From the NCBI GenBank assembly GCA_022791945.1, contig JAAVZY010000065.1:1-64000 (forward strand): a stretch of DNA of 64,000 bases, read 5' to 3'. Under the pieces are notes generated by a model. The model saw nothing but the letters and a program-made list of their open reading frames with translations, searched no databases and was not told the DNA's origin. Every line of letters begins with the position of its first letter. The stretch's first letter is position 1. The position numbers and the translations under genes are program-made. Source of the stretch: Oscillospiraceae bacterium (lineage in GTDB: Bacteria > Bacillota > Clostridia > Oscillospirales > Ruminococcaceae). Positions 9,212-56,410 of the stretch are shown here, piece by piece.

Positions 9212-10957
9212 ATGGAAACTGTAACTCTGAAAATCAATAACATTCCAGTAACCGTACCGCGGGACACCACGATCATCGAAGCGGCCCGGCAGGCTGGGAT
9301 CAGCATCCCCACCCTCTGCTATCTGAAGGGCATCAATGAGATTGGCGCCTGCCGGATGTGTCTGGTTGAGGTCAAGGGCGCCCGGAGCTTTGCGGCCGCC
9401 TGCGTTCAGCCGGTTGGCGAGGGGATGGAGGTATTCACCAATACCCCCGAGCTGATCAAAAACCGGAAGAACACCCTGGAGCTGGTGCTCTCCACCCACG
9501 ACAAAAAGTGCCTGTCCTGCTCCCGGAGCGGCGACTGTGAGCTTCAGCGTCTTTCCCGTGAGTACGGCATTGAGGATGAAAACAAGTTCGAGGGCGAGAA
9601 GAACCACTACGAGCTGGACGCCTCCGCCGCCCACATGGTGCGGGACAACAACAAGTGCATCCTCTGCCGCCGGTGCGTGGCGGCCTGCGCCAACGTTCAG
9701 GGCATCGGCGTGATCGGTCCCAATCAGCGCGGCTTCAAGGCCCACATTGCCAGCGCCTTTGAGATGGATCTGGCGGATACCTCCTGTGTATCCTGCGGCC
9801 AGTGCATTACCGCTTGCCCGGTGGGCGCGCTGTACGAAAAGGACGTTACCGACGAGGTCTTTGCGGCCATCAACGATCCAAAGAAGATCGTAATTGTTCA
9901 GACCGCTCCGGCCGTCCGCACCGCTCTGGGCGAGCCCTTCGGCCTGCCCATCGGCACCAACGTGAAGGGCCGGATGGCTGCCGCTATCCGCCGCCTGGGC
10001 GTTGACAAGGTATTTGACACGGATTTCTCCGCTGACCTGACCATTATGGAAGAGGCCAACGAGTTCATTGAGCGGGTGAAGAACGGCGGCGTGCTGCCCA
10101 TGATCACCTCCTGCTCTCCTGGCTGGGTCAAGTTCTGCGAGCACTATTATCCGGACATGATCGAGAACCTGTCCACCTGCAAATCTCCCCAGCAGATGTT
10201 CGGCGCGATTGTGAAGACCTACTACGCCGAGAAGAACAACATCGATCCAAAGGACATCTATCTGGTTTCCGTCATGCCCTGCACCGCCAAGAAGTTCGAG
10301 CGGGGCCGTGACGATCAGGCCGCAGCCGGCGTGCCGGACATTGACGCGGTTCTCACCACCCGTGAGCTGGCGAAGATGATCAAGAAGGCGGGCCTGATGT
10401 TCGCCGAGCTGCCGGATGAAGAGTTCGATCTGCCCCTGGGCATCGGCTCCGGCGCGGGTGCGATCTTCGGCGCCACCGGCGGCGTTATGGAGGCTGCCCT
10501 CCGCACCGCGGTGGAGACTCTGACGGACACCAAGCTGGAAGGGGAGGCGCTGGACTTCAAGGAGGTCCGGGGCATTGAGGGCATCAAGGAGGCTGCTTAT
10601 AAGGTAGGCGATCTGGAGGTCAAGGTAGCGGTTGCCTCCGGCCTGGCCAACGCCCGGAAGCTGCTGGACGCTGTGAAGGCGGGAGAAGCCAAGTACGACT
10701 TTATTGAGATTATGGCCTGCCCCGGCGGCTGCGTCAACGGCGGCGGTCAGCCCATCGTGCAGGCGCCTGTCCGGAACGCCAAGGACATCCGCACCCTCCG
10801 TGCGAAGGTTCTGTATGATGAGGATCTGAATCTGCCTTACCGGAAGTCCCACGACAACCCGGTGATCAAGGAGCTGTATGAGACTTATCTGGAGAAGCCC
10901 GGCAGCCACAAGGCCCACGAGATCCTCCACACCTCCTATGTAAAACGCGGTCTGTAA
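9212..10957 (+). CDS. hydA: [FeFe] hydrogenase catalytic subunit (group A, HydA-type)
   Basis: H-cluster motifs TSCSPGWVKFCE, VMPCTAKKFE, EIMACPGGCVNGGGQP; N-terminal 2Fe-2S and ferredoxin domains. Confidence 0.96.
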   Translation: METVTLKINNIPVTVPRDTTIIEAARQAGISIPTLCYLKGINEIGACRMCLVEVKGARSFAAACVQPVGEGMEVFTNTPELIKNRKNTLELVLSTHDKKCLSCSRSGDCELQRLSREYGIEDENKFEGEKNHYELDASAAHMVRDNNKCILCRRCVAACANVQGIGVIGPNQRGFKAHIASAFEMDLADTSCVSCGQCITACPVGALYEKDVTDEVFAAINDPKKIVIVQTAPAVRTALGEPFGLPIGTNVKGRMAAAIRRLGVDKVFDTDFSADLTIMEEANEFIERVKNGGVLPMITSCSPGWVKFCEHYYPDMIENLSTCKSPQQMFGAIVKTYYAEKNNIDPKDIYLVSVMPCTAKKFERGRDDQAAAGVPDIDAVLTTRELAKMIKKAGLMFAELPDEEFDLPLGIGSGAGAIFGATGGVMEAALRTAVETLTDTKLEGEALDFKEVRGIEGIKEAAYKVGDLEVKVAVASGLANARKLLDAVKAGEAKYDFIEIMACPGGCVNGGGQPIVQAPVRNAKDIRTLRAKVLYDEDLNLPYRKSHDNPVIKELYETYLEKPGSHKAHEILHTSYVKRGL

Positions 10958-10961
10958 GGGC

Positions 10962-11020
10962 AGGACCTTGGGGGCGGAGCCCCCAAACCTCCGCCAAAGG
11001 GACTCGTCCCTTTGGAATCC
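10962..11020. repeat. Hairpin-repeat family fragment (A + B hairpins)
   Basis: accttgggggcggagcccccaaa followed by ccaaagggactcgtccctttgg. Confidence 0.85.
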
Positions 11021-11034
11021 CACGATACGTTTAG

Positions 11035-11070
11035 AGGGAGAGGGTTCTTTAGGAACCCTCTCCCTTTGTT
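11035..11070 (+). terminator. Probable intrinsic terminator after hydA
   Basis: GGGAGAGGGTTC-TTTAG-GAACCCTCTCCC followed by TTTGTTG. Confidence 0.75.
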
Positions 11071-11084
11071 GCCTAGTGCATCGA

Positions 11085-11232
11085 AGGGCAAGGCCGCGAG
11101 ACAGAGTCTCGCGTCCCCGCTGCGCCGCTAGCGGCGCAGCTCAGAATTCGGCGAAGCCGAATTCCTAAGTGCGTTGTGAAACAACGCACTGCGGTGACTC
11201 GAGGGCAGCGCCCTCGAGGTCTTGCCCTTCGA
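11085..11232. repeat. Short composite copy of the hairpin-repeat family (A-D-C-E-A)
   Basis: gcgagacagagtctcgc; gctgcgccgctagcggcgcagc; gaattcggcgaagccgaattc; gtgcgttgtgaaacaacgcac; ctcgagggcagcgccctcgag in series. Confidence 0.9.
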
Positions 11233-11282
11233 CGCACCCAGAGATTTTGAGCAGGCACGAAAGGAAATGGAGAGAAGCAGCC

Positions 11283-14094: not shown

Positions 14095-15591
14095 ATGCTG
14101 AACGAATTCCCGCTGAAAAATCCCATGACCAAGGAAGAATATAAGGATGTGGCCCAGGAGCTGAAAACCGAGCTCTCTGTCCTTCAGCATCAGATTCAGG
14201 ACGCAAAGCTTCCTGTGATCATCCTCTTTGAGGGCTGGGGCGCAGCCGGAAAGGGCACGCTGATTTCCGACATGCTCCAGAACCTGGATCCCCGCAGCTT
14301 CAAGGTCCATTCCACCCTTCCGCCCACTGACGAGGACAAACGCCGTCCCTGGCTGTACCGCCACTGGTGCGGCATTCCGGAAAAGGGCCGGATCTCCATC
14401 CTGGATCGGAGCTGGTATCCGGAGGCCTCCCTGGCCAGGCTGGAGGACGGCCTCTCTGAGGAAGTATCCGCCGAACGGCTCCGGGAGATCAACGCCTTTG
14501 AGCATCAGCTCACCGACGACGGGTATCTGATCATCAAGTTCTTCCTGCACATCTCTCAGAAAAAGCAGAGAAAGCGCCTGGAAAAGCTGGCGGACAACCC
14601 GGATACCGCCTGGCGGGCCACCAAGCTGGACTGGTCCCGGAACAAAAAGTACGATCGCTACTGCGCGGTCTTCGACGCCATGCTGGAGGCCACCCATACT
14701 CCTGCCGCCCCTTGGCACATCCTCTCCGGTCAGGAGCATTACACCGCGCGCTACGAAATGTACCGGATTCTCACCGACAGCATCCGCAGCGCGCTGGCGG
14801 TCAAGGCTTCCGCCAAGGTGCGGAAGTCCCGGAAGCCCGCCGCTCCCAGGGAGATGCCCGGCTTCCAGCTGGTGTCCATGCCCAAGCTGGCTGAGGTTAC
14901 CCTGGACAAGGCCCTTGCCCAGGAGGAGTACAAGGAGCTTTTGAAGGATCGCCAGCGGCAGATCCGGGAGCTTCATAACCGGCTGTACAAGGAGAAGGTG
15001 CCGGTCATTGCTGTATATGAGGGCTGGGACGCGGCCGGCAAGGGCGGCAACATCAAGCGCCTGACCGCGGCTCTGGATCCCCGGGGCTATGAGGTGATCC
15101 CGATTGCCTCCCCTTCCTCCACGGAGCTTGCCCATCACTACCTCTGGCGGTTTTGGCGCGCCCTGCCCAAGGATGGGCATGTGACCATTTTTGATCGCAC
15201 CTGGTACGGCCGGGTGATGGTGGAACGGATCGAGGGCTTTGCCTCCGAGACCGAGTGGAAGCGCGCTTATCGGGAGATCAACGAGTTTGAGGAATCCCTT
15301 CACAACTGGGGCGCGGTTCTGCTGAAATTCTGGCTTCATATCGATCCGGACGAGCAGCTCCGCCGGTTCCAGGAGCGGGAAGCCATCCCGGAAAAGAACT
15401 GGAAAATCACCGCCGAGGACTGGCGCAACCGGGATAAATGGGAACAGTATGAAATCGCGGTCAACGATATGATCCGCCTCACCAGCACCGACTTCGCCCC
15501 CTGGACCATCATCGAATCCCAAGACAAGCGCTATGGCCGCATCAAAGCCATGGACGCGTTTATCCGCGCCGTGGAAGAGAAGCTGGACTGA
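14095..15591 (+). CDS. pap: Polyphosphate:AMP phosphotransferase (tandem PPK2 domains)
   Basis: Two PPK2 repeats: FEGWGAAGKGT...RSWY and YEGWDAAGKGGNIKRL...FDRTWYGRVMVERIEGF. Confidence 0.93.
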   Translation: MLNEFPLKNPMTKEEYKDVAQELKTELSVLQHQIQDAKLPVIILFEGWGAAGKGTLISDMLQNLDPRSFKVHSTLPPTDEDKRRPWLYRHWCGIPEKGRISILDRSWYPEASLARLEDGLSEEVSAERLREINAFEHQLTDDGYLIIKFFLHISQKKQRKRLEKLADNPDTAWRATKLDWSRNKKYDRYCAVFDAMLEATHTPAAPWHILSGQEHYTARYEMYRILTDSIRSALAVKASAKVRKSRKPAAPREMPGFQLVSMPKLAEVTLDKALAQEEYKELLKDRQRQIRELHNRLYKEKVPVIAVYEGWDAAGKGGNIKRLTAALDPRGYEVIPIASPSSTELAHHYLWRFWRALPKDGHVTIFDRTWYGRVMVERIEGFASETEWKRAYREINEFEESLHNWGAVLLKFWLHIDPDEQLRRFQEREAIPEKNWKITAEDWRNRDKWEQYEIAVNDMIRLTSTDFAPWTIIESQDKRYGRIKAMDAFIRAVEEKLD

Positions 15592-15599
15592 GTATTCAC

Positions 15600-16366
15600 A
15601 GAAGGGAAGGCCGCGAGAGCTCTGCTCTCGCGCTCTCGCCAAGGAGAGCCAGCTCCCCTTGGATTCCCGTCTTTTTAAGGGCGAAGGGGGTGGGGGTTCA
15701 AGTCTGTACAGACTTGTTACTTCCTGCCTCGCTGACACTTCCTGCGTGGTCGATCGCCCGCCTACCCATTTTTTCGTAAAGAAAAAATTCATCCCCATAG
15801 GCGGCGCAAACGGTGCGACGCAGAAAGTCCCGAGCGTGTTCTGTTACGCTCGGAACTTTCTGCAAGAAAGGGCTTTGTGCGACGTTCGGAATCCCCCAGT
15901 CAGGGCTACCGCCTGACGGCGGCATCCCTGCCATGCCCCATACGTTCCAAAGGAACGTATGGGAGAGGGGACCGCCGCCGGACAAGAGGGACGGTGGTGG
16001 AGGAAGGATTCCGATCGTGGCACAAAATCCCTCCCCGCAGAGCCTGTGAGCGTGGTAGTATTACGCTCATACCCTCTGCGCCGCAAGGAAGTACCCCCGC
16101 ACGCTGGAGGGAGCTTTTTTCTTTACGAAAAAAGCGTCCTGCGGGAATCAAACTCTCTGCGTGGCAGGAAGCCGGAAGTCTGTACAGACTCAACCACCCC
16201 TTTTCCGCCCTTAAAAATCCCTTAAAAATAATGGGAATCCAATGGGAATCCCTTCCCGATGCGCCGCCAGCGGCGCATCTCAGAATTCGGCGAAGCCGAA
16301 TTCCTAAGTGCGTTGTGAAACAACGCACTGCGGAGACTCGAGGGCAGAGCCCTCGAGGTCTTCCCG
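15600..16366. repeat. Full-length composite hairpin-repeat element
   Basis: Two inverted half-elements sharing the A-B/aagtctgtacagactt/ttttttcgtaaagaaaaaa order, with a central 18-bp-arm palindrome (gcagaaagtcccgagcgt...acgctcggaactttctgc). Confidence 0.9.
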
Positions 16367-16438
16367 CTGTAATATGTTCTCTATCATGCGTTTCACTGCC
16401 CCCCTGCGGACGCAGGGGGCAGTTTTTTACAGGAGGAT

Positions 16439-19296: not shown

Positions 19297-19493
19297 TTGC
19301 AGATCCTTCCTTTCATGATAAAGTCCCGCATTCGGGGCGGGAGGGTACACGCATGGTTCCGCTTCCGCAGGAAATTACCTGGAGTATACCACACCGGCTT
19401 GGCATATGCAAGCAGTTTCCAAAGAGCGCAGGACTTGATCCCAGCCCCTCAACGTGATATCCTTATAACCTGAGCAGGGAGCGCTGGTCGGGA

Positions 19494-20384
19494 GAAGGCC
19501 GCGAGAGCTCTGCTCTCGCGCTCTCGCCAAGGGGATTTAATCCCCGTGGAACCCGTAATTTTTTGGGGTTATTGGGGGCAAGTCTGTACAGACCTGGTAC
19601 TCCCTGCCTCGCTGATACTCCCCGCAGAGACGATCGCCCGCCTACCCATTTTTTCGTAAAGAAAAAATTCAGCTCCATAGGCGGCGCAGACACTGCGACG
19701 CAGAATGTTTCGAGCGTGTTCTGCTGCGCTCATACTCTCTGCGGAGAGGGGGCTTTGTGCGACGTTCGGAATCCCCCAGTCAGGGCTACCGCCTGTCGGC
19801 GGCATCCCTGCCATGCCCCGGACGTTCCTTCGGAACGTCTAACAAGGGGGCCGAGCCAACACTCTGCGTTGATAGACGCTCTGTACGTAGTTAAGGGGCA
19901 CTCATCCTCTTAAATTCGCAGAAAGCGTCTTTATAACGCAGAAAGTTGGCTTGCCTCCCTTTAACAAGGGAGGGGGACCGCCGTCGGGCCAAAGGGACGT
20001 CGGCGGTGGAAGGATTCCCATGGGAGCACAAAGTCCCCCCGCCCGCACATAATACCAATCGGAAGCACTATCCCAGTCTGTGCAGGAACTCCTGTGCGGC
20101 GCAGGAAGTATCCCGCAGGCAGGGTGGAGCTTTTTTCTTTACGAAAAAAGCGTACTGCGTGAATCAGACCATCTGCGTGGCAAAGGGAAGGAAGTCTGTA
20201 CAGACTCAACCACCCCTTTTTCCGCCCCTAAAAAAGCCCTTAAAAAATAATGGGAATCCAAGGGGAATCCCTTCCCGATGCGCCGCCAGCGGCGCATCTC
20301 AGAATTCGGCGAAGCCGAATTCCTAAGTGCGTTGTGAAACAACGCACTGCGGAGCTCGAGGCAGAGCCTCGAGGTCTTGCCCTT
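19494..20384. repeat. Full-length composite hairpin-repeat element (about 0.9 kb)
   Basis: Same half-elements as 15600-16366 with extra internal sequence; ends in the D-C-E-A hairpin series. Confidence 0.9.
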
Positions 20385-20417
20385 CACACAGACACCAAAC
20401 AATCAAGGAGTGAGCGT

Positions 20418-22456: not shown

Positions 22457-23811
22457 TGGGAAGCATACGGCAGGATCCTGCCTTTTTCAAGAGCTTTTTC
22501 TCCCTGACACTGACCATCGCCCTGCAAAATCTGATTGTGTTCGGGGTAGGGCTGGCGGATAACCTGATGCTGGGGGGCTACAGTGAAGCGGCGCTCTCCG
22601 GGGTGGCGCTGGCGAATCAGATCCAGTTCCTTCTCCATATGATGGTCATGGGCATCGGGGAGGGGATTGTGGTGCTCTCCTCCCAATACTGGGGACGGAG
22701 GGAGATGGAGCCTGTCCGGCGGGTGATCACCATCGGCCTCCGGCTGGGGCTGGGGGTGGCCCTGCTGCTGTGGGCGGTGATGTTCTGCTTCCCGGCCCAG
22801 GTGCTGGGCCTGCTGGCGGATGACGCCGCAGCCATTGGGGAGGGCGTGAAGTACCTCCGGATCATCTGCTTCACCTATTTTTTCTTCGCTGTAACCAACA
22901 TTCTGCTGGCGGCGCTCCGGAGCGTGGAAACAGTGCGGATTGCCTTTCTGGTGTCCCTGTCCACGCTGGTGATCGACGTCTGCCTGAATTATATGCTGAT
23001 CTACGGGCGTTTCGGCGCTCCCAGGATGGGAACGCAGGGAGCGGCTGTCGCGACCCTGATCGCCCGTGTCACAGAGTTCCTGATCGTCACCCTTTACCTC
23101 TTCCTGGGAGACAAACGGATCCGTTACCGTCCAAGGGATCTGCTCCATGGGGATTGCGCGCTTTTCGGGACGTTCCTCCGGGTGGGGCTGCCGGTGCTGC
23201 TGTCCAATACCATCTGGGGAATTGCCCAGGCGGTGCAGACCTCCATTCTGGGACATCTGGGCGGGCCGTCCATTGCCGCCAACAGCATTGCCTCCACCGT
23301 ATTCCAGATTGTGACGGTCATCTGCTACGGAGCCGGCAGCGCCTCCGGGGTTCTGACAGGAAAGACCATTGGGGAAGGGGCGCCGGAGAAGATCCGCCGG
23401 TACGCCAAGCCTCTCCAGGGGATTTATCTGGTAATCGGGCTGTGCACGGGGCTGACCCTGCTCCTCTGCCGGGACGGGATTCTGGGGCTGTACGCCATCT
23501 CGGGGGAAACGAAGGAGCTGGCGCGGCAGTTCATGGCGGTGCTGTCGGTGACGGTGGTGGGCACCTCCTATCAGGTTCCGGTGTTGACCGGTCTGGTGCG
23601 GGGCGGGGGCGACACCCGGTTCGTGCTGTACAACGATTCGATTTTTATGTGGGGGATAGTGATTCCATCCGCGCTGACTGCGGCCTATGTGCTGGGACTG
23701 CCGCCGGCGGCAGTGTTCGCCTGCCTGAAATGCGACCAGATTCTCAAGTGCTTCGTGGCCCTGGTGAAGGTGAACAAGGGGCATTGGATCCGTACACTGA
23801 CGCAGACGTGA
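22456..23811 (+). CDS. MATE family efflux transporter
   Basis: LADNLMLGGYSEAALSGVALANQIQ; 12-TM MATE pattern. Confidence 0.93.
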   Translation: MGSIRQDPAFFKSFFSLTLTIALQNLIVFGVGLADNLMLGGYSEAALSGVALANQIQFLLHMMVMGIGEGIVVLSSQYWGRREMEPVRRVITIGLRLGLGVALLLWAVMFCFPAQVLGLLADDAAAIGEGVKYLRIICFTYFFFAVTNILLAALRSVETVRIAFLVSLSTLVIDVCLNYMLIYGRFGAPRMGTQGAAVATLIARVTEFLIVTLYLFLGDKRIRYRPRDLLHGDCALFGTFLRVGLPVLLSNTIWGIAQAVQTSILGHLGGPSIAANSIASTVFQIVTVICYGAGSASGVLTGKTIGEGAPEKIRRYAKPLQGIYLVIGLCTGLTLLLCRDGILGLYAISGETKELARQFMAVLSVTVVGTSYQVPVLTGLVRGGGDTRFVLYNDSIFMWGIVIPSALTAAYVLGLPPAAVFACLKCDQILKCFVALVKVNKGHWIRTLTQT

Positions 23812-24402
23812 GGGGAAGACCTCGAGGGCGCTGCCCTCGAGCTCCTGCCAAGGGGAGCTGGCTCCCCTTGGATTCCCGTCTTTTTAAGGGCGAAGGGGGT
23901 GGGGGGCAAGTCTGTACAGACTTTTTACTCCCTGCCTCGCTGATCGTTCCTTCGTGGTCGATCGCCCGCCTACCCATTTTTTCGTAAAGAAAAAATTCAT
24001 CCCCATAGGCGGCGCAGAGACTGCGACGCAGAAAGTCCCGGGCGTGTTCTGTTACGCTCGGGACTTTCTATGTGGGATGAAACGCTGTGCTGCGCTCAAA
24101 ATCCCTGTGCGGCGCAGGAAAGTATCCCGCACGCAGGAGGGAGCTTTTTTCTTTACGAAAAAAGCGTACTGCGGGAATTAGACTCTCTGCGTGGCAGGGA
24201 GCAGCAAGTCTGTACAGATTTAATCCCACCCCTTTTCCGCTCTTAAAAAGCCCTTAAAAATAATGGGAATCCAAGGGGAATCCCTCCCCGATGCGCCGCT
24301 GGCGGCGCATCTCAGAATTCGGCGAAGCCGAATTCCTAGGTGCGTCGTTTCACGACGCACCGCAGAGACGCGAGGACAGAGCCCTCACGGCCTTGCCCTT
24401 CG
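23812..24402. repeat. Full composite hairpin-repeat element
   Basis: A and B hairpins, aagtctgtacagactt, ttttttcgtaaagaaaaaa, gaaagtcccgggcgt...acgctcgggactttc, then the D-C-E-A series. Confidence 0.9.
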
Positions 24403-24435
24403 GCAGCGCAGAGATTCCAGACGGCGCACAGCGCA

Positions 24436-25440: not shown

Positions 25441-25471
25441 TGTACGATACCTCCAGGATTGCGCTTGCTCG

Positions 25472-25628
25472 TTAAGACCTCGAGGACGCTGTCCTCGAGC
25501 ACCTGCCAAGGGGAGCTGGCTCCCCTTGGATTCCCGTCTTTTCCGCCCTTCAAAAATTACGGGTTCCAAGGGGATTTAATCCCCTTGGCGAGAGCGCGAG
25601 AGCAGAGCTCTCGTGGCCTTGCCCTTCC
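25472..25628. repeat. Short inverted pair of A-B repeat ends
   Basis: ctcgaggacgctgtcctcgag/ccaaggggagctggctccccttgg followed by inverted ccaaggggatttaatccccttgg/gcgagagcagagctctcgt. Confidence 0.88.
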
Positions 25629-25641
25629 GAACACGCGGAGG

Positions 25642-29785: not shown

Positions 29786-29796
29786 ACAGTCGGGGA

Positions 29797-30307
29797 GGGC
29801 AAGACCTCGAAGGGCTCTGCCCTCCGAGCCTCCCGCCAAGGGGGTTAAATCCCCTTGGAACCCGTAATTTTTGGGGTATAGGGTGTTGGATTTCGGCCCC
29901 TGCCTCGCTGTTGCTTCCCGCAGAGACGATCGCCCGCCTACCCATTTTTTCGTAAAGAAAAAATTCAGCCCCACGTGCGGGGCAGAGACTGCGACGCAGA
30001 AAGGCTCAAGCGTGTTCTGCGTAGGAAGCCTGGCGCGGCGCAGGAAGTCCCCCGCACACAGGAAGGAGCTTTTTTCTTTACGAAAAAAGCGTACTGCGGG
30101 AATCAGGCTCTCTGCGTGGCAGAGAGAAGGAAGTCTCTACAGACTTGACCTCCAACCCCTTTTTCGCCCTTTTAAATAACGGGAATCCAAGGGGAATCCC
30201 TTCCCGATGCGCCGCCAGCGGCGCATCTCAGAATTCGGCGAAGCCGAATTCCTAAGTGCGTTGTGAAACAACGCACTGCGGAGACTCGAGGCAGAGCCTC
30301 GAGGTCT
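29797..30307. repeat. Composite hairpin-repeat element
   Basis: A/B hairpins, ttttttcgtaaagaaaaaa, cttttttctttacgaaaaaag, aagtctctacagactt, D-C-E-A series. Confidence 0.88.
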
Positions 30308-30341
30308 TGAGATCCTAAACAGGCTCTAAGGAGGAATCACT

Positions 30342-32275: not shown

Positions 32276-32283
32276 GAGCCTCC

Positions 32284-32765
32284 GGGCGCGTCGAAGGGCA
32301 AGGCCGCAAGACGCTGTCTCGCGTCTCTGCGGTGCGTCGTGAAACGACGCATCGGGGAGGGATTCCCCTTGGATTCCCATTATTTTCAAGGGCTTTTTAA
32401 GGGCGGAAAGGGGTGGGGTCAAGTCTGCACAGACTTTCGGTTTTCTGCCACGCAGAGGGTCTGATTCCCGCAGTATGCTTTTTTCGTAAAGAAAAAAGCT
32501 CCCTCCTGCGTGCGGGGTACTTCCCGCGCCGCACAGGGGTTTCTGTGCAGATTGGGATAGTGGTTCCGATCAGTTTGTGCAGGCGGGGCATTCTGTGCGC
32601 CTGAGGGAATCCTTCCGCCACCGCCGCTCCTTCGGAGCAACGGCGGTTCCCTCTCCCATACGTTCCGAAGGAACGCCTGGGGGATTCCGTGCGTAGCACT
32701 GTGCTCCCCCTCCGGAGAAAGTATGAGCGTAACAGAACCTGCCCGAAACTTTCTGCGTCGCCCGA
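32284..32765. repeat. Composite hairpin-repeat element, truncated on the right
   Basis: A/E hairpins, aagtctgcacagactt, ttttttcgtaaagaaaaaa, then part of the central palindrome (gagaaagtatgagcgtaacagaacctgcccgaaactttctgcgtcg). Confidence 0.85.
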
Positions 32766-32847: not shown

Positions 32848-32854
32848 GTCCGCA

Positions 32855-33190
32855 ATAGCTGTGAAAAGAGCAGATGGCGGTCGTCAGGCCCTTGCAGAGA
32901 GCGTCCGGCAGGTGGAAGGACGCGGGGAACGGCGCGGGATTTTCCCGGCGGAGTGTGCGGAGCGTTTGGAGCGTATTCTGCCGCCTTAAAATTACCTCTT
33001 GGAGCTGTGGGGAGGAACAGGGCCTCGGCCTTCAGTAAGCCCCATCGGGTACGCCCGTTACAGCGTCGAGCGTCTGTCGGCCCTGCCGGCCAGCAGACGG
33101 AGAGGCCGGCCTTGCGAGAGTGCCGGTAAATTGAGGTGGTAACGCGATATATTCGCCCTCTGTTCATTTTGTGAGCAGGGGGCTTTTTGC
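32855..33190 (+). ncRNA. T-box leader (Tyr) upstream of tyrS
   Basis: Stem I GGTGGAAGG motif, plausible UAC specifier near 32993, T-box tgaggtggtaacgcg (~33132-33146), terminator gccctctgttcattttgtgagcagggggcttttt. Confidence 0.9.
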
Positions 33191-33234
33191 AGCTTCCTGC
33201 CGGAGCCGCGTCTGCGGAGAAAGGATGCATATTT

Positions 33235-37425: not shown

Positions 37426-37461
37426 CGTATTGTCAATCCTTTCTGGGTGTTGTAGCAACAG

Positions 37462-37605
37462 CGGGGAAGACCTCGAGGACGCTGTCCTCGAGTCTCCGCA
37501 GTGCGTTGTTTCACAACGCACTTAGGAATTCGGCTTCGCCGAATTCTGAGATGCGCCGCTGGCGGCGCATTGCAGAGCGCGAGACAGAGTCTCGCGGCCT
37601 TGCCC
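37462..37605. repeat. Short composite hairpin-repeat element (A-E-C-D-A)
   Basis: ctcgaggacgctgtcctcgag; gtgcgttgtttcacaacgcac; gaattcggcttcgccgaattc; gatgcgccgctggcggcgcat; gcgagacagagtctcgc. Confidence 0.92.
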
Positions 37606-37644
37606 TTAGAGAATCCAGCGATCCTCCTGCCGGGGGACTTCTTC

Positions 37645-40341: not shown

Positions 40342-40612
40342 AAAAACCGCCCTGAGCCAATCGGCTCAGGGCGGGAACTCCCGTGGTACCACCTGAATTC
40401 GGAGCGTAAGCTCCGCGCTTTGCGCACGCCGCCGTCAGGCAGCGCCTTCCCCTGTAACGGTGGGACTCCGTCGGGACCTACTAAGACTGCTCCGTTGGGC
40501 TCCGCGGCTCAAGGGCTACCTTCCATGCCAGCCTCCCGGAAGCTTCCACCAGCCGCTTCCTCTCTGAGGGTGAGGCAGAGCATGTACTCCTCCCTGTCAG
40601 CGCCTTTCGCTG
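40342..40612 (-). ncRNA. T-box leader (Val) upstream of valS
   Basis: Reverse complement has GAATTCAGGTGGTACCACGGGAGTTCC T-box and CCGCCCTGAGCC-GATT-GGCTCAGGGCGGTTTTT terminator (40342-40374). Confidence 0.92.
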
Positions 40613-44805: not shown

Positions 44806-45062
44806 AACGTGCGACGCGGTGAGCTCCGAGCAGGTTCTGCTACGCTCATACTCTCCGCGGGGTGAAACGCTGTGCCACACACGCAAGAGGGAGCTTTTTT
44901 CTTTACGAAAAAAGCGTACTGCGTGAATCAGACTATCTGCGTGGCAGAAAGTCGGAAGTTTGTACAGACTTACCCCCCTTTTCCGCCCTTAAAATAATGG
45001 GATTCCAAAGGGACGAGTCCCTTTGGCGGAGCTCGAGGCAGAGCCTCGAGGTCTTTCCCTTC
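44806..45062. repeat. Hairpin-repeat half-element
   Basis: cttttttctttacgaaaaaag, aagt.tgtacagactt, ccaaagggacgagtccctttgg, ctcgaggcagagcctcgag. Confidence 0.88.
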
Positions 45063-45099
45063 GGCCACGCAGAGAGTCTGAATATCTGACGGCTTTCTC

Positions 45100-46337: not shown

Positions 46338-46540
46338 AGACCTGCATTCCGCACAGGGGAGCTTTTTTCTTTACGAAAAAAGCGTTCTGCGTGAATCAGA
46401 CTCTCTGCGCGGCAGGAACAAGGAAGTCTCTACAGACTTGATCCACAACCCTTTTCGCCCTTAAAAAAGACGGGAATCCAAGGGGGCAAGTCCACTTGGC
46501 AGAGGTTTGGGGACAGCGTCCCCAAGGTCTTGCCCTTCGT
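46338..46540. repeat. Hairpin-repeat half-element
   Basis: cttttttctttacgaaaaaag, aagtctctacagactt, B hairpin variant, ttggggacagcgtccccaa. Confidence 0.88.
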
Positions 46541-46557
46541 CCACGCAGAGATAACTC

Positions 46558-47220
46558 TTAAAGAGCAGGGGCAGGAGACTTCTGTGGAGTGTCTGCCATT
46601 TTACGGCTGATAACAGGGATTCGGGCGAGAATCAGCAGAGCCACAACGGAGACTGCCATTTCCCCAAGCATCAGGGAGCCGTTGACAATTCCCGAATAGA
46701 CGACTGCCAATCCAAAGCCGTGGAAGGTGCTGAGCACAGCCCCCCCAATAGAAGCGCCTGCATCCTCCGTGAAAAACCATTCTGCATAGCTGCCCCAGAT
46801 GGTTGCGCCTGCCACAAAATGGATGAAATAACGGGCGAAAATAGCGACAAGCCCGCCCAGAGTAAGGGCGGCAGAAGGGCTTTTAAACCGGTCGCGGAAG
46901 AGTCCGCCCAGCCCCAGCAGGGTATAAGCCAGGACATATTCCAAAAGAACGTCCACAATCACCATCCAAAGCTCAAAGCCAAAGCTGTGCTTCGCTACGC
47001 CAATCAGCAGCTGGATGACGCCGAACACAAAGGAACTGAACAGGCCCCACCTGGTCCCCCAGCGATAGGCCAGCAGGATCATGGGCACCATGGCGCAAAC
47101 GGTGATTCCGCCTCCAAAAGGAATGTGAATTACCTTGATCTCCGATAAGATGGTCGCGAGGGCAAGCAAAATTGCGCTCTCACAAAGACACCGGGTACTG
47201 ATACGGGTGGTTTTGGACAT
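46558..47220 (-). CDS. thiT: ECF transporter S component, thiamine-specific (ThiT-like)
   Basis: Multi-TM S-component pattern (LLALATILSEIKVIHIPFGGGITVCAMVPMILLAYRWG); preceded by a TPP riboswitch. Confidence 0.88.
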   Translation of the reverse strand: MSKTTRISTRCLCESAILLALATILSEIKVIHIPFGGGITVCAMVPMILLAYRWGTRWGLFSSFVFGVIQLLIGVAKHSFGFELWMVIVDVLLEYVLAYTLLGLGGLFRDRFKSPSAALTLGGLVAIFARYFIHFVAGATIWGSYAEWFFTEDAGASIGGAVLSTFHGFGLAVVYSGIVNGSLMLGEMAVSVVALLILARIPVISRKMADTPQKSPAPAL

Positions 47221-47332: not shown

Positions 47333-47393
47333 TCATTCACCCGGTCATACATGCATACATGCACAGGGGCTCTCCCCGGATCGGCAAACGATT

Positions 47394-47510
47394 CTCCCTA
47401 CGATGGCATTATCCATATCAGGTCAAAGGGACTCGGGCAGTTCCATGCCCTGTTCTCAGCCGCGTGGAGCTCCCGGACTTCTGTCCGGAGCAGTCGCAGC
47501 GCCCCTGATC
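47394..47510 (-). ncRNA. TPP riboswitch (THI element)
   Basis: Reverse complement GGCTGAGAACAGGGC...GAGTCCCTTTGACCTGATATGGATAATGCCATCGTAGGGAG matches the CUGAGA / ACCUGAU.UGGAUAAUGCCA.CGUAGGGA core. Confidence 0.95.
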
Positions 47511-47741
47511 GTTTCCCATCATAGCATATCTTCAGCGCGTTTGTCAACCGGCAATTCTGCCGCTCCTAATTGTTTCCCCCCTGCCAGTCTCAAAATATGC
47601 AAAAGCAGATGCTGTGCGCTCCAGGGTCCGCTCGATTGGTACAGCGTCACTCTCTATTGCACTTTTGGGCGTATCGATGTAAAATAATCCTGTATGGCCC
47701 AATCATCGGAATTTCATAATCGCAAAAAAGGAGAACGCGCC

Positions 47742-55795: not shown

Positions 55796-55861
55796 TCACC
55801 CCCTCCGCCCGTTCCCCCGGGACGGGCGGAGGCCAGGAAATCTCTGCGCGCTGGAAGGGGG

Positions 55862-56358
55862 AAAGACCTTGGGGACGCTGTCCCCAAACCTCTGCCAAAG
55901 GGACGCGTCCCTTTGGAATCCCATCTTTTTTAAGGGCGGAGATGGGGGTGGGTCAAGTCTGTGCAGACTTCCTCCTTCCTGCCACGCAGAAAGTCTGATT
56001 CCCGCAGTACGCTTTTTTCGTAAAGAAAAAAGCTCCTTCCTGTGTGCGGGGTAGTTCCTGCGGCGCACAGAGGTTTCTGCGCAGACTCAGCGTGGCACAG
56101 CGTTTCACCCCGCAGAGAGTATGCGCGTAGCAGAACACGCTCGGGACTTTCTGCGTCGTACGGTCTGCGCCGCCTATGGAGCTGAATTTTTTCTTTACGA
56201 AAAAATGGGTAGGCGGGCGATCGACCACGTAAGGAGTATCAGCGAGGCAGGGGGACGGGCGCTTGCGCCCGTCCCCACCCCCCACCCCCAAAAAGAAGGG
56301 AATCCAAGGGGATTTAATCCCCTTGGCCGAGCTCGAGGCAGAGCCTCGAGGTCTTCCC
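55862..56358. repeat. Full composite hairpin-repeat element
   Basis: Left cttggggacgctgtccccaa/ccaaagggacgcgtccctttgg, two hairpin-G modules in inverted context, right ccaaggggatttaatccccttgg/ctcgaggcagagcctcgag. Confidence 0.92.
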
Positions 56359-56410
56359 CTGGAACCCCCGAAACAGGCGCTGGCCTCTTTCGATTTGCAA
56401 GGAGAGATTG

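Follow-up and report, generated by a model that had tools for sequence, protein, structure and literature searches.

The intergenic regions of an Oscillospiraceae bacterium are populated by a palindromic element composed of two diverged half-elements, L and R, which lie in inverted orientation and, when adjacent, are always found as one L plus one R. We attribute this, with a probability of about two in three, to an old, species-level expansion of a composite non-autonomous fold-back MITE with IS1031-type ends that was moved in trans. The element was first noticed in the window, the whole stretch of 64,000 nucleotides analysed here, by a sequence-only reading that described two related halves in inverted orientation and proposed either a fold-back mobile element with specialised L and R halves or a very large structured RNA. 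That observation is correct, and the phenomenon is larger than was stated. The paired layout is present at every site named for it (15600, 19494, 23812, 29797 and 55862), the halves at 55862-56358 are indeed swapped, and the lone half-elements placed at 44806 and 46338 are both R-only. Two further R-only elements and all three core-less members in Table 1 had been missed.

Table 1. Coordinates of the elements and their parts in the window
Feature	Position	Strand	Basis or remarks
Complete L-R element under study	15592-16370	+	homology-covered segment with L and R cores; begins directly after PPK2 stop codon at 15591
H1 hairpin, left arm, GCGAGAGC-TCT-GCTCTCGC	15613-15631	+	sequence
H2 hairpin, left arm, CCAAGG...CCTTGG	15639-15662	+	sequence; 198/218 fully paired over copies
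H3 palindrome AAGTCTGTACAGACTT, left arm	15700-15715	+	sequence
L core TTTTTTCGTAAAGAAAAAA	15769-15787	-	core search, homology coverage
R core TTTTTTCTTTACGAAAAAA	16115-16133	+	core search, homology coverage
H3 palindrome, right arm	16176-16190	+	sequence
Right arm, outer part: triple-hairpin insert (GCGCCGC / GAATTC / GTTGTG) and H1	16259-16365	+	inverted repeat, 97% with 37464-37570
Complete L-R element	19483-20388	+	homology; L core 19649, R core 20131
Complete L-R element	23807-24417	+	GTGA, then GGGGAAGACC, directly after MATE stop at 23811; L core 23977, R core 24145
Complete L-R element between Sir2 and cobA genes	29792-30310	+	L core 29945, R core 30070
Complete element, opposite orientation (R-L)	55839-56363	-	R core 56013, L core 56187
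R-core-only element upstream of tyrS	32280-32761	-	
R-core-only element flush on pnp stop codon	43415-43831	-	
R half-element	44806-45084	+	R core at 44895
R half-element	46341-46552	+	R core at 46363
Core-less member, outer hairpin modules alone	10958-11256	undefined	flush on hydrogenase stop at 10957
Minimal core-less fold-back	25471-25640	undefined	outer left arm fused straight to outer right arm
Core-less member with triple-hairpin insert	37460-37621	undefined	

The source genome (2.75 Mb, 157 contigs, 98.5% complete) belongs to a gut-type member of the Clostridia, and the nearest named records of the TyrS encoded in the window are uncultured Clostridia, Anaerotruncus and Ruminococcus bins at 71-82% identity. 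The window also carries a T-box leader (40364-40609, minus strand) and, upstream of a thiamine transporter gene (46558-47220), a TPP riboswitch (47377-47516, minus strand), both at Rfam gathering score. The leader ahead of tyrS (about 32850-33230) resembles a T-box-like tyrS leader in sequence L127 but drew no Rfam call at gathering score. Across the genome, a search that tolerated a single mismatch located 834 copies of the A/T-hairpin core, compared with 0 occurrences of a reversed-pattern control. Stretches totalling 832 kb out of the 2.75 Mb were sampled, containing 277 A/T-hairpin cores and 616 genes called with a self-trained script, on which all gene-based figures depend.

Adjacent cores, defined as profile-typed pairs no more than 900 nt apart, were divergent and outward-pointing in 108 of 108 cases in this sample, each pair consisting of one L and one R (59 in the order L-R, 49 R-L, no LL or RR; 0.5^108 = 3e-33), so that the pairing is a rule rather than a tendency. 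Such uniform pairing, along with the 834 cores against none for the reversed pattern, leads us to reject a chance layout. A further 61 cores are unpaired (39 R, 20 L and 2 untyped). Core-to-core spacing is quantised at 67, approximately 125-128, approximately 165-177, approximately 220 and approximately 350 nt, with a maximum of 503 nt, which reflects gain or loss of inner modules. The tree built from 80 half sequences places L and R in separate, discrete clades and needs a single L/R change. Their similarity nevertheless extends outside the core: when L was compared with inverted R with the core excluded, the 230 nt of the outer arm gave a median score of 48, and 90% scored above every control; dinucleotide-shuffled controls had a median of 17 and none exceeded 26. 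In the 85 nt adjoining the core the similarity is weak (18 versus 13), with 58% exceeding the 95th percentile of the control. The refuting condition set by the sequence-only reading, that the two halves share no significant similarity outside the A/T-rich hairpin, therefore does not hold: they are related beyond it, chiefly in their outer arms.

From the outside inwards, each half consists of a terminal inverted repeat (TIR, GAGCCTGTTCAGAATCTCTGCGTGNNCGAAGGGC), AAGACC, H1, H2 (CCAAGGGG..CCCCTTGG) and ATTCCCGT.TTTT, followed by (AAGGGCG) GGGGTGGGG, H3 (either AAGTCTGTACAGACTT or GACGGGCGCTTGCGCCCGTC, or none), CCTGCC(T/A)CGC and the core block. H1 and H2 are exchanged for allelic versions, and further hairpins are nested inside them. 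H1 occurs as 22 perfect-stem types over copies and has at least 7 of its 8 pairs perfect in 201 of 297 ends, a count that falls to 30 of 297 if each 3' part is replaced by that of a different copy, while 98.7% of H2 cells are Watson-Crick paired, compared with 92.5% after shuffling. Pairing so far above the controls indicates that the local hairpins are kept via compensatory change. Matching nested inserts on the two arms are avoided, the triple insert being present on both sides in only 1 of 104 elements; this scarcity may result from instability or deletion of palindromes, or from failure of the assembly at perfect inverted repeats.

The elements cover approximately 11% of the sampled DNA; they account for 45% of the intergenic sequence but for just 0.08% of the coding sequence. 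Of the 315 intergenic regions that reach 150 nt or more, 193 contain them. Within the first 446 kb, the occupied gaps are 52 of 264 tandem, 16 of 38 convergent and 9 of 36 divergent gaps, with no more than two cores per gap. A close relationship with stop codons is apparent at their ends. Where an end faces a stop codon, AAGACC lies a median of 22 nt away from it, compared with 76 nt at start-facing ends, and in six cases the TAA stop is completed by the element itself. Among stop-facing termini with an intact TIR and TNA no more than 100 nt from the gene, 12 of 20 use the stop codon of that gene as their TNA, compared with 17% of background TNA sites (p 2e-5) and 38% of CTNAG sites (p 0.04). 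Over all flush genes the stop-context enrichment is modest (TNAG 38% versus 28%, p 0.02), and it is clear only where the inverted repeat is intact. Insertion into TAA or TGA would duplicate, and hence restore, the stop codon, making it a harmless site that the target rule often offers. Since both TAA and TGA fit the TNA target, insertions probably often landed exactly in stop codons, flush with the gene and without damage to it. Graded truncations suggest that many other flush ends arose when the TIR wore away as far as the stop codon.

The nature of the element is indicated by its better-preserved outer ends, where GAGCCTGTTCAGAATCT inverted repeats adjoin 3-bp TNA duplications. A consensus C-T-N-A precedes 96 inverted-repeat termini. 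Identical TNA triplets flank three core-bearing elements (TAA/TAA at C154:16631-17201 and C91:58594-59113; TTA/TTA at C154:31688-32082), and identical target-site duplications (TSDs) were found for 8 of 15 inverted pairs of these repeats, the remainder being mostly decayed or chance partners. The genome also contains fragments of an IS5_3 transposase (NF033580, E 1.6e-27 and 3.4e-16) that adjoin CTAAG followed by AGCCTGTTCAAAATCTTTT, a terminus which agrees with the inverted repeat of the element in 16 of 17 letters. These are C-terminal fragments near contig ends, one carrying a stop; no complete transposase gene was seen, and the same IS5_3 transposase was not found in the seven congeners searched. 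ISLrh, of the IS1031 group, has the inverted repeat GAACCTGTCTAGTATCT and TNA direct repeats (PMC12016507), and 13 of 17 letters agree between this repeat and that of the element. The element thus has the GAxCCTGT inverted repeat and TNA duplication of the IS1031 group of the IS5 family. It does not encode a transposase and is intergenic and present in high copy, which, alongside a shared TIR and a TSD of fixed length, probably places it among MITEs. A separate 161-bp MITE with GAGCCTGTTC-type TIRs at both ends and TNA duplications (TAA/TAA, TTA/TTA, TGA/TGA) is present in the same genome (C16:3317-3478, C16:31899-32060, C64:56215-56376, C83:6800-6961 and C128:36078-36239), as is a second IS5-type (IS5_4) transposase fragment at the end of contig C63 (L215), with no GAGCCTGTTC terminus nearby.

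The outer ends of the element are inverted repeats of IS1031 type (IS5 family; 5'-GAGCCTGTTCAGAATCTC-3'), whose insertion at (C)TNA(G) duplicated the 3 bp of TNA. They enclose interchangeable palindromic modules (H1, H2, H3 and nested hairpins), then the outward-facing L and R cores, which variable modules separate from each other. These features suggest a sequence of events in which an IS5_3 transposase probably worked in trans on the terminal repeats and moved L and R as one unit. Most TIRs then eroded, while hairpins and cores stayed perfect, whether through selection on individual copies or through palindrome-correcting mutation. The spread is probably old: recent transposition is not visible, because identity between sampled copies never exceeds 89% (the median best partner is at 84%), although the 157-contig assembly may lack copies that were nearly alike. 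A TIR matching at least 15 of 24 letters is retained at 55 of 297 anchored ends, approximately 82% having lost it.

This erosion raises the question of whether the host keeps each copy as a domesticated 3'-UTR or intergenic element, whose hairpins and A/T cores would act in place in mRNA 3'-end protection, in insulation or as the site of a DNA- or RNA-binding protein, a reading to which we give a real if minor chance. Nearly all halves retain H1 despite the loss of TIRs (201 of 272 by model and most of the printed remainder by eye), many compensatory types occur in the H1 and H2 stems, and TIR-less halves are about as conserved as TIR-bearing ones (block conservation 0.971 versus 0.937 for L, 0.921 versus 0.944 for R). 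Perfect cores are seen in 76% of L and 92% of R copies, shares inflated by a search that allowed up to two mismatches, amid neighbouring segments that diverge by 10-42%. However, ends and cores were located with models of themselves, which favours intact ones, and correction of quasi-palindromes can maintain perfect hairpins without selection. The elements, moreover, have no preferred orientation relative to genes, both orientations occurring. A role as intrinsic terminators, or a displacement of terminators to the far side, was considered and rejected: there is one good example after 16370 but no enrichment of displaced or internal terminators (4 of 30 distal flanks versus 3 of 26 controls), and T-rich tracts inside the elements are only weakly terminator-like. 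Intact cores and hairpins in TIR-less copies point to constraint after insertion or, for the hairpins, to palindrome-correcting mutation, which leaves the invariant loop of the core unaccounted for; no IS5 mechanism is known to need this conserved core. Since approximately 82% of ends lack a TIR yet cores and hairpins are intact, some copies may have been kept for a host function. That an IS1031-type MITE docked in stop codons has been domesticated genome-wide, with L/R cores and hairpins now under selection, is in our estimate rather unlikely; if so, several hundred genes would share a heterodimeric hairpin 3' region as a post-transcriptional or chromosome-organising module.

The mobile half of the original proposal is upheld by the obligatory L plus R pairing, the inverted termini with TNA duplications and the IS5-family transposase fragments that share the terminus. 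The other half, one very large structured RNA with the left arm paired to the right, is now very improbable. A 514-nt copy does fold end to end far better than shuffles (z -11.8 as RNA, -13.5 as DNA), but strong single-strand folding is expected from palindromes alone. Compared with arms swapped between elements, the two arms of one element pair no better over the inner 90 nt (22.5 versus 22.2) and worse overall (48.2 versus 58.6, with 0 of 5000 permutations as low), a deficit mainly due to the rarity of matched nested or triple inserts. L-R coevolution within elements is thus absent, which argues against one giant RNA, as do the internal spacing varying from 67 to 503 nt, the existence of single halves, the occurrence in both gene orientations and the absence of any Rfam match in the element. 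Palindromes of REP/BIME type spread by a RAYT/Y1 (HUH) transposase would likewise be palindromic, intergenic, mosaic and of high copy number, but Y1_Tnp (PF01797) had no match in the genome while controls were positive, and the element has TIRs with a 3-bp TSD instead, so that this origin is hardly probable at all. A search for a phage or plasmid origin gave no match.

The L/R core was absent from 60 relatives, including seven congeners. BLAST with the full element against 397 sampled genomes of the same family revealed no L/R core, giving only one chance coding match (L111) and H1/H2-like matches in four others, and no two cores 40-70 nt apart were found among 85,462 species genomes, a set from which the source genome itself may be left out. 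The element after pnp is absent in five congeners, whose downstream genes differ and none of which is a close sister strain. The H2 hairpin pattern is patchy through the family, occurring in 31 of 398 genomes (the source included) with 1-42 matches elsewhere versus 497 here, usually behind a GGGGC..GCCCC hairpin. Judging from these distributions, the outer module seems to descend from an intergenic palindrome that is older and family-wide, whereas the L/R heterodimer belongs to the present lineage alone. Other genera of the family (L249 (G277), L246, L248, L258 and L259) have their own mosaics of short palindromes around H2, with compensatory loop and stem variants.

Among bacterial non-autonomous elements, few are known that take up a tenth of the genome, and we have seen neither an obligatory L/R heterodimer (108 of 108) nor a stop-codon-restoring target rule described. 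That the local hairpins covary while the two arms of the element do not separates matters usually confused in palindromic repeats, and with hundreds of copies in a single genome the choice between selection and palindrome-correcting mutation can be put to the test. Among known systems, the family's double-hairpin intergenic motif (GGGGC..GCCCC-N-GCCAARGGG..CCCYTTGGRATCCC) has the same H1-H2 outer module but no L/R core elsewhere. BIMEs, the mosaics of REP sequences, are similarly modular, intergenic assemblies of short palindromes in alternating orientation, whereas the present genome has no RAYT gene and the element has a TIR with TSD and defined L and R halves. The IS1031 group of the IS5 family (e.g. 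ISLrh; PMC12016507) and its derived MITEs share the terminal inverted repeat GA(A/G)CCTGT..., the TNA target and the 3-bp duplication; in contrast, the present element is non-coding, 500-900 bp long and made of nested palindromes in paired L/R halves, with the inverted repeat mostly lost. MITEs of the ERIC, Correia and QMITE type are also high-copy intergenic palindromes that vary in size, lose TIRs and insert into one another, with 711 copies of ERIC in Photorhabdus luminescens (PMC10969869), whereas the unit described here is an obligatory heterodimer of diverged halves that makes up 45% of intergenic DNA and often starts at a stop codon.
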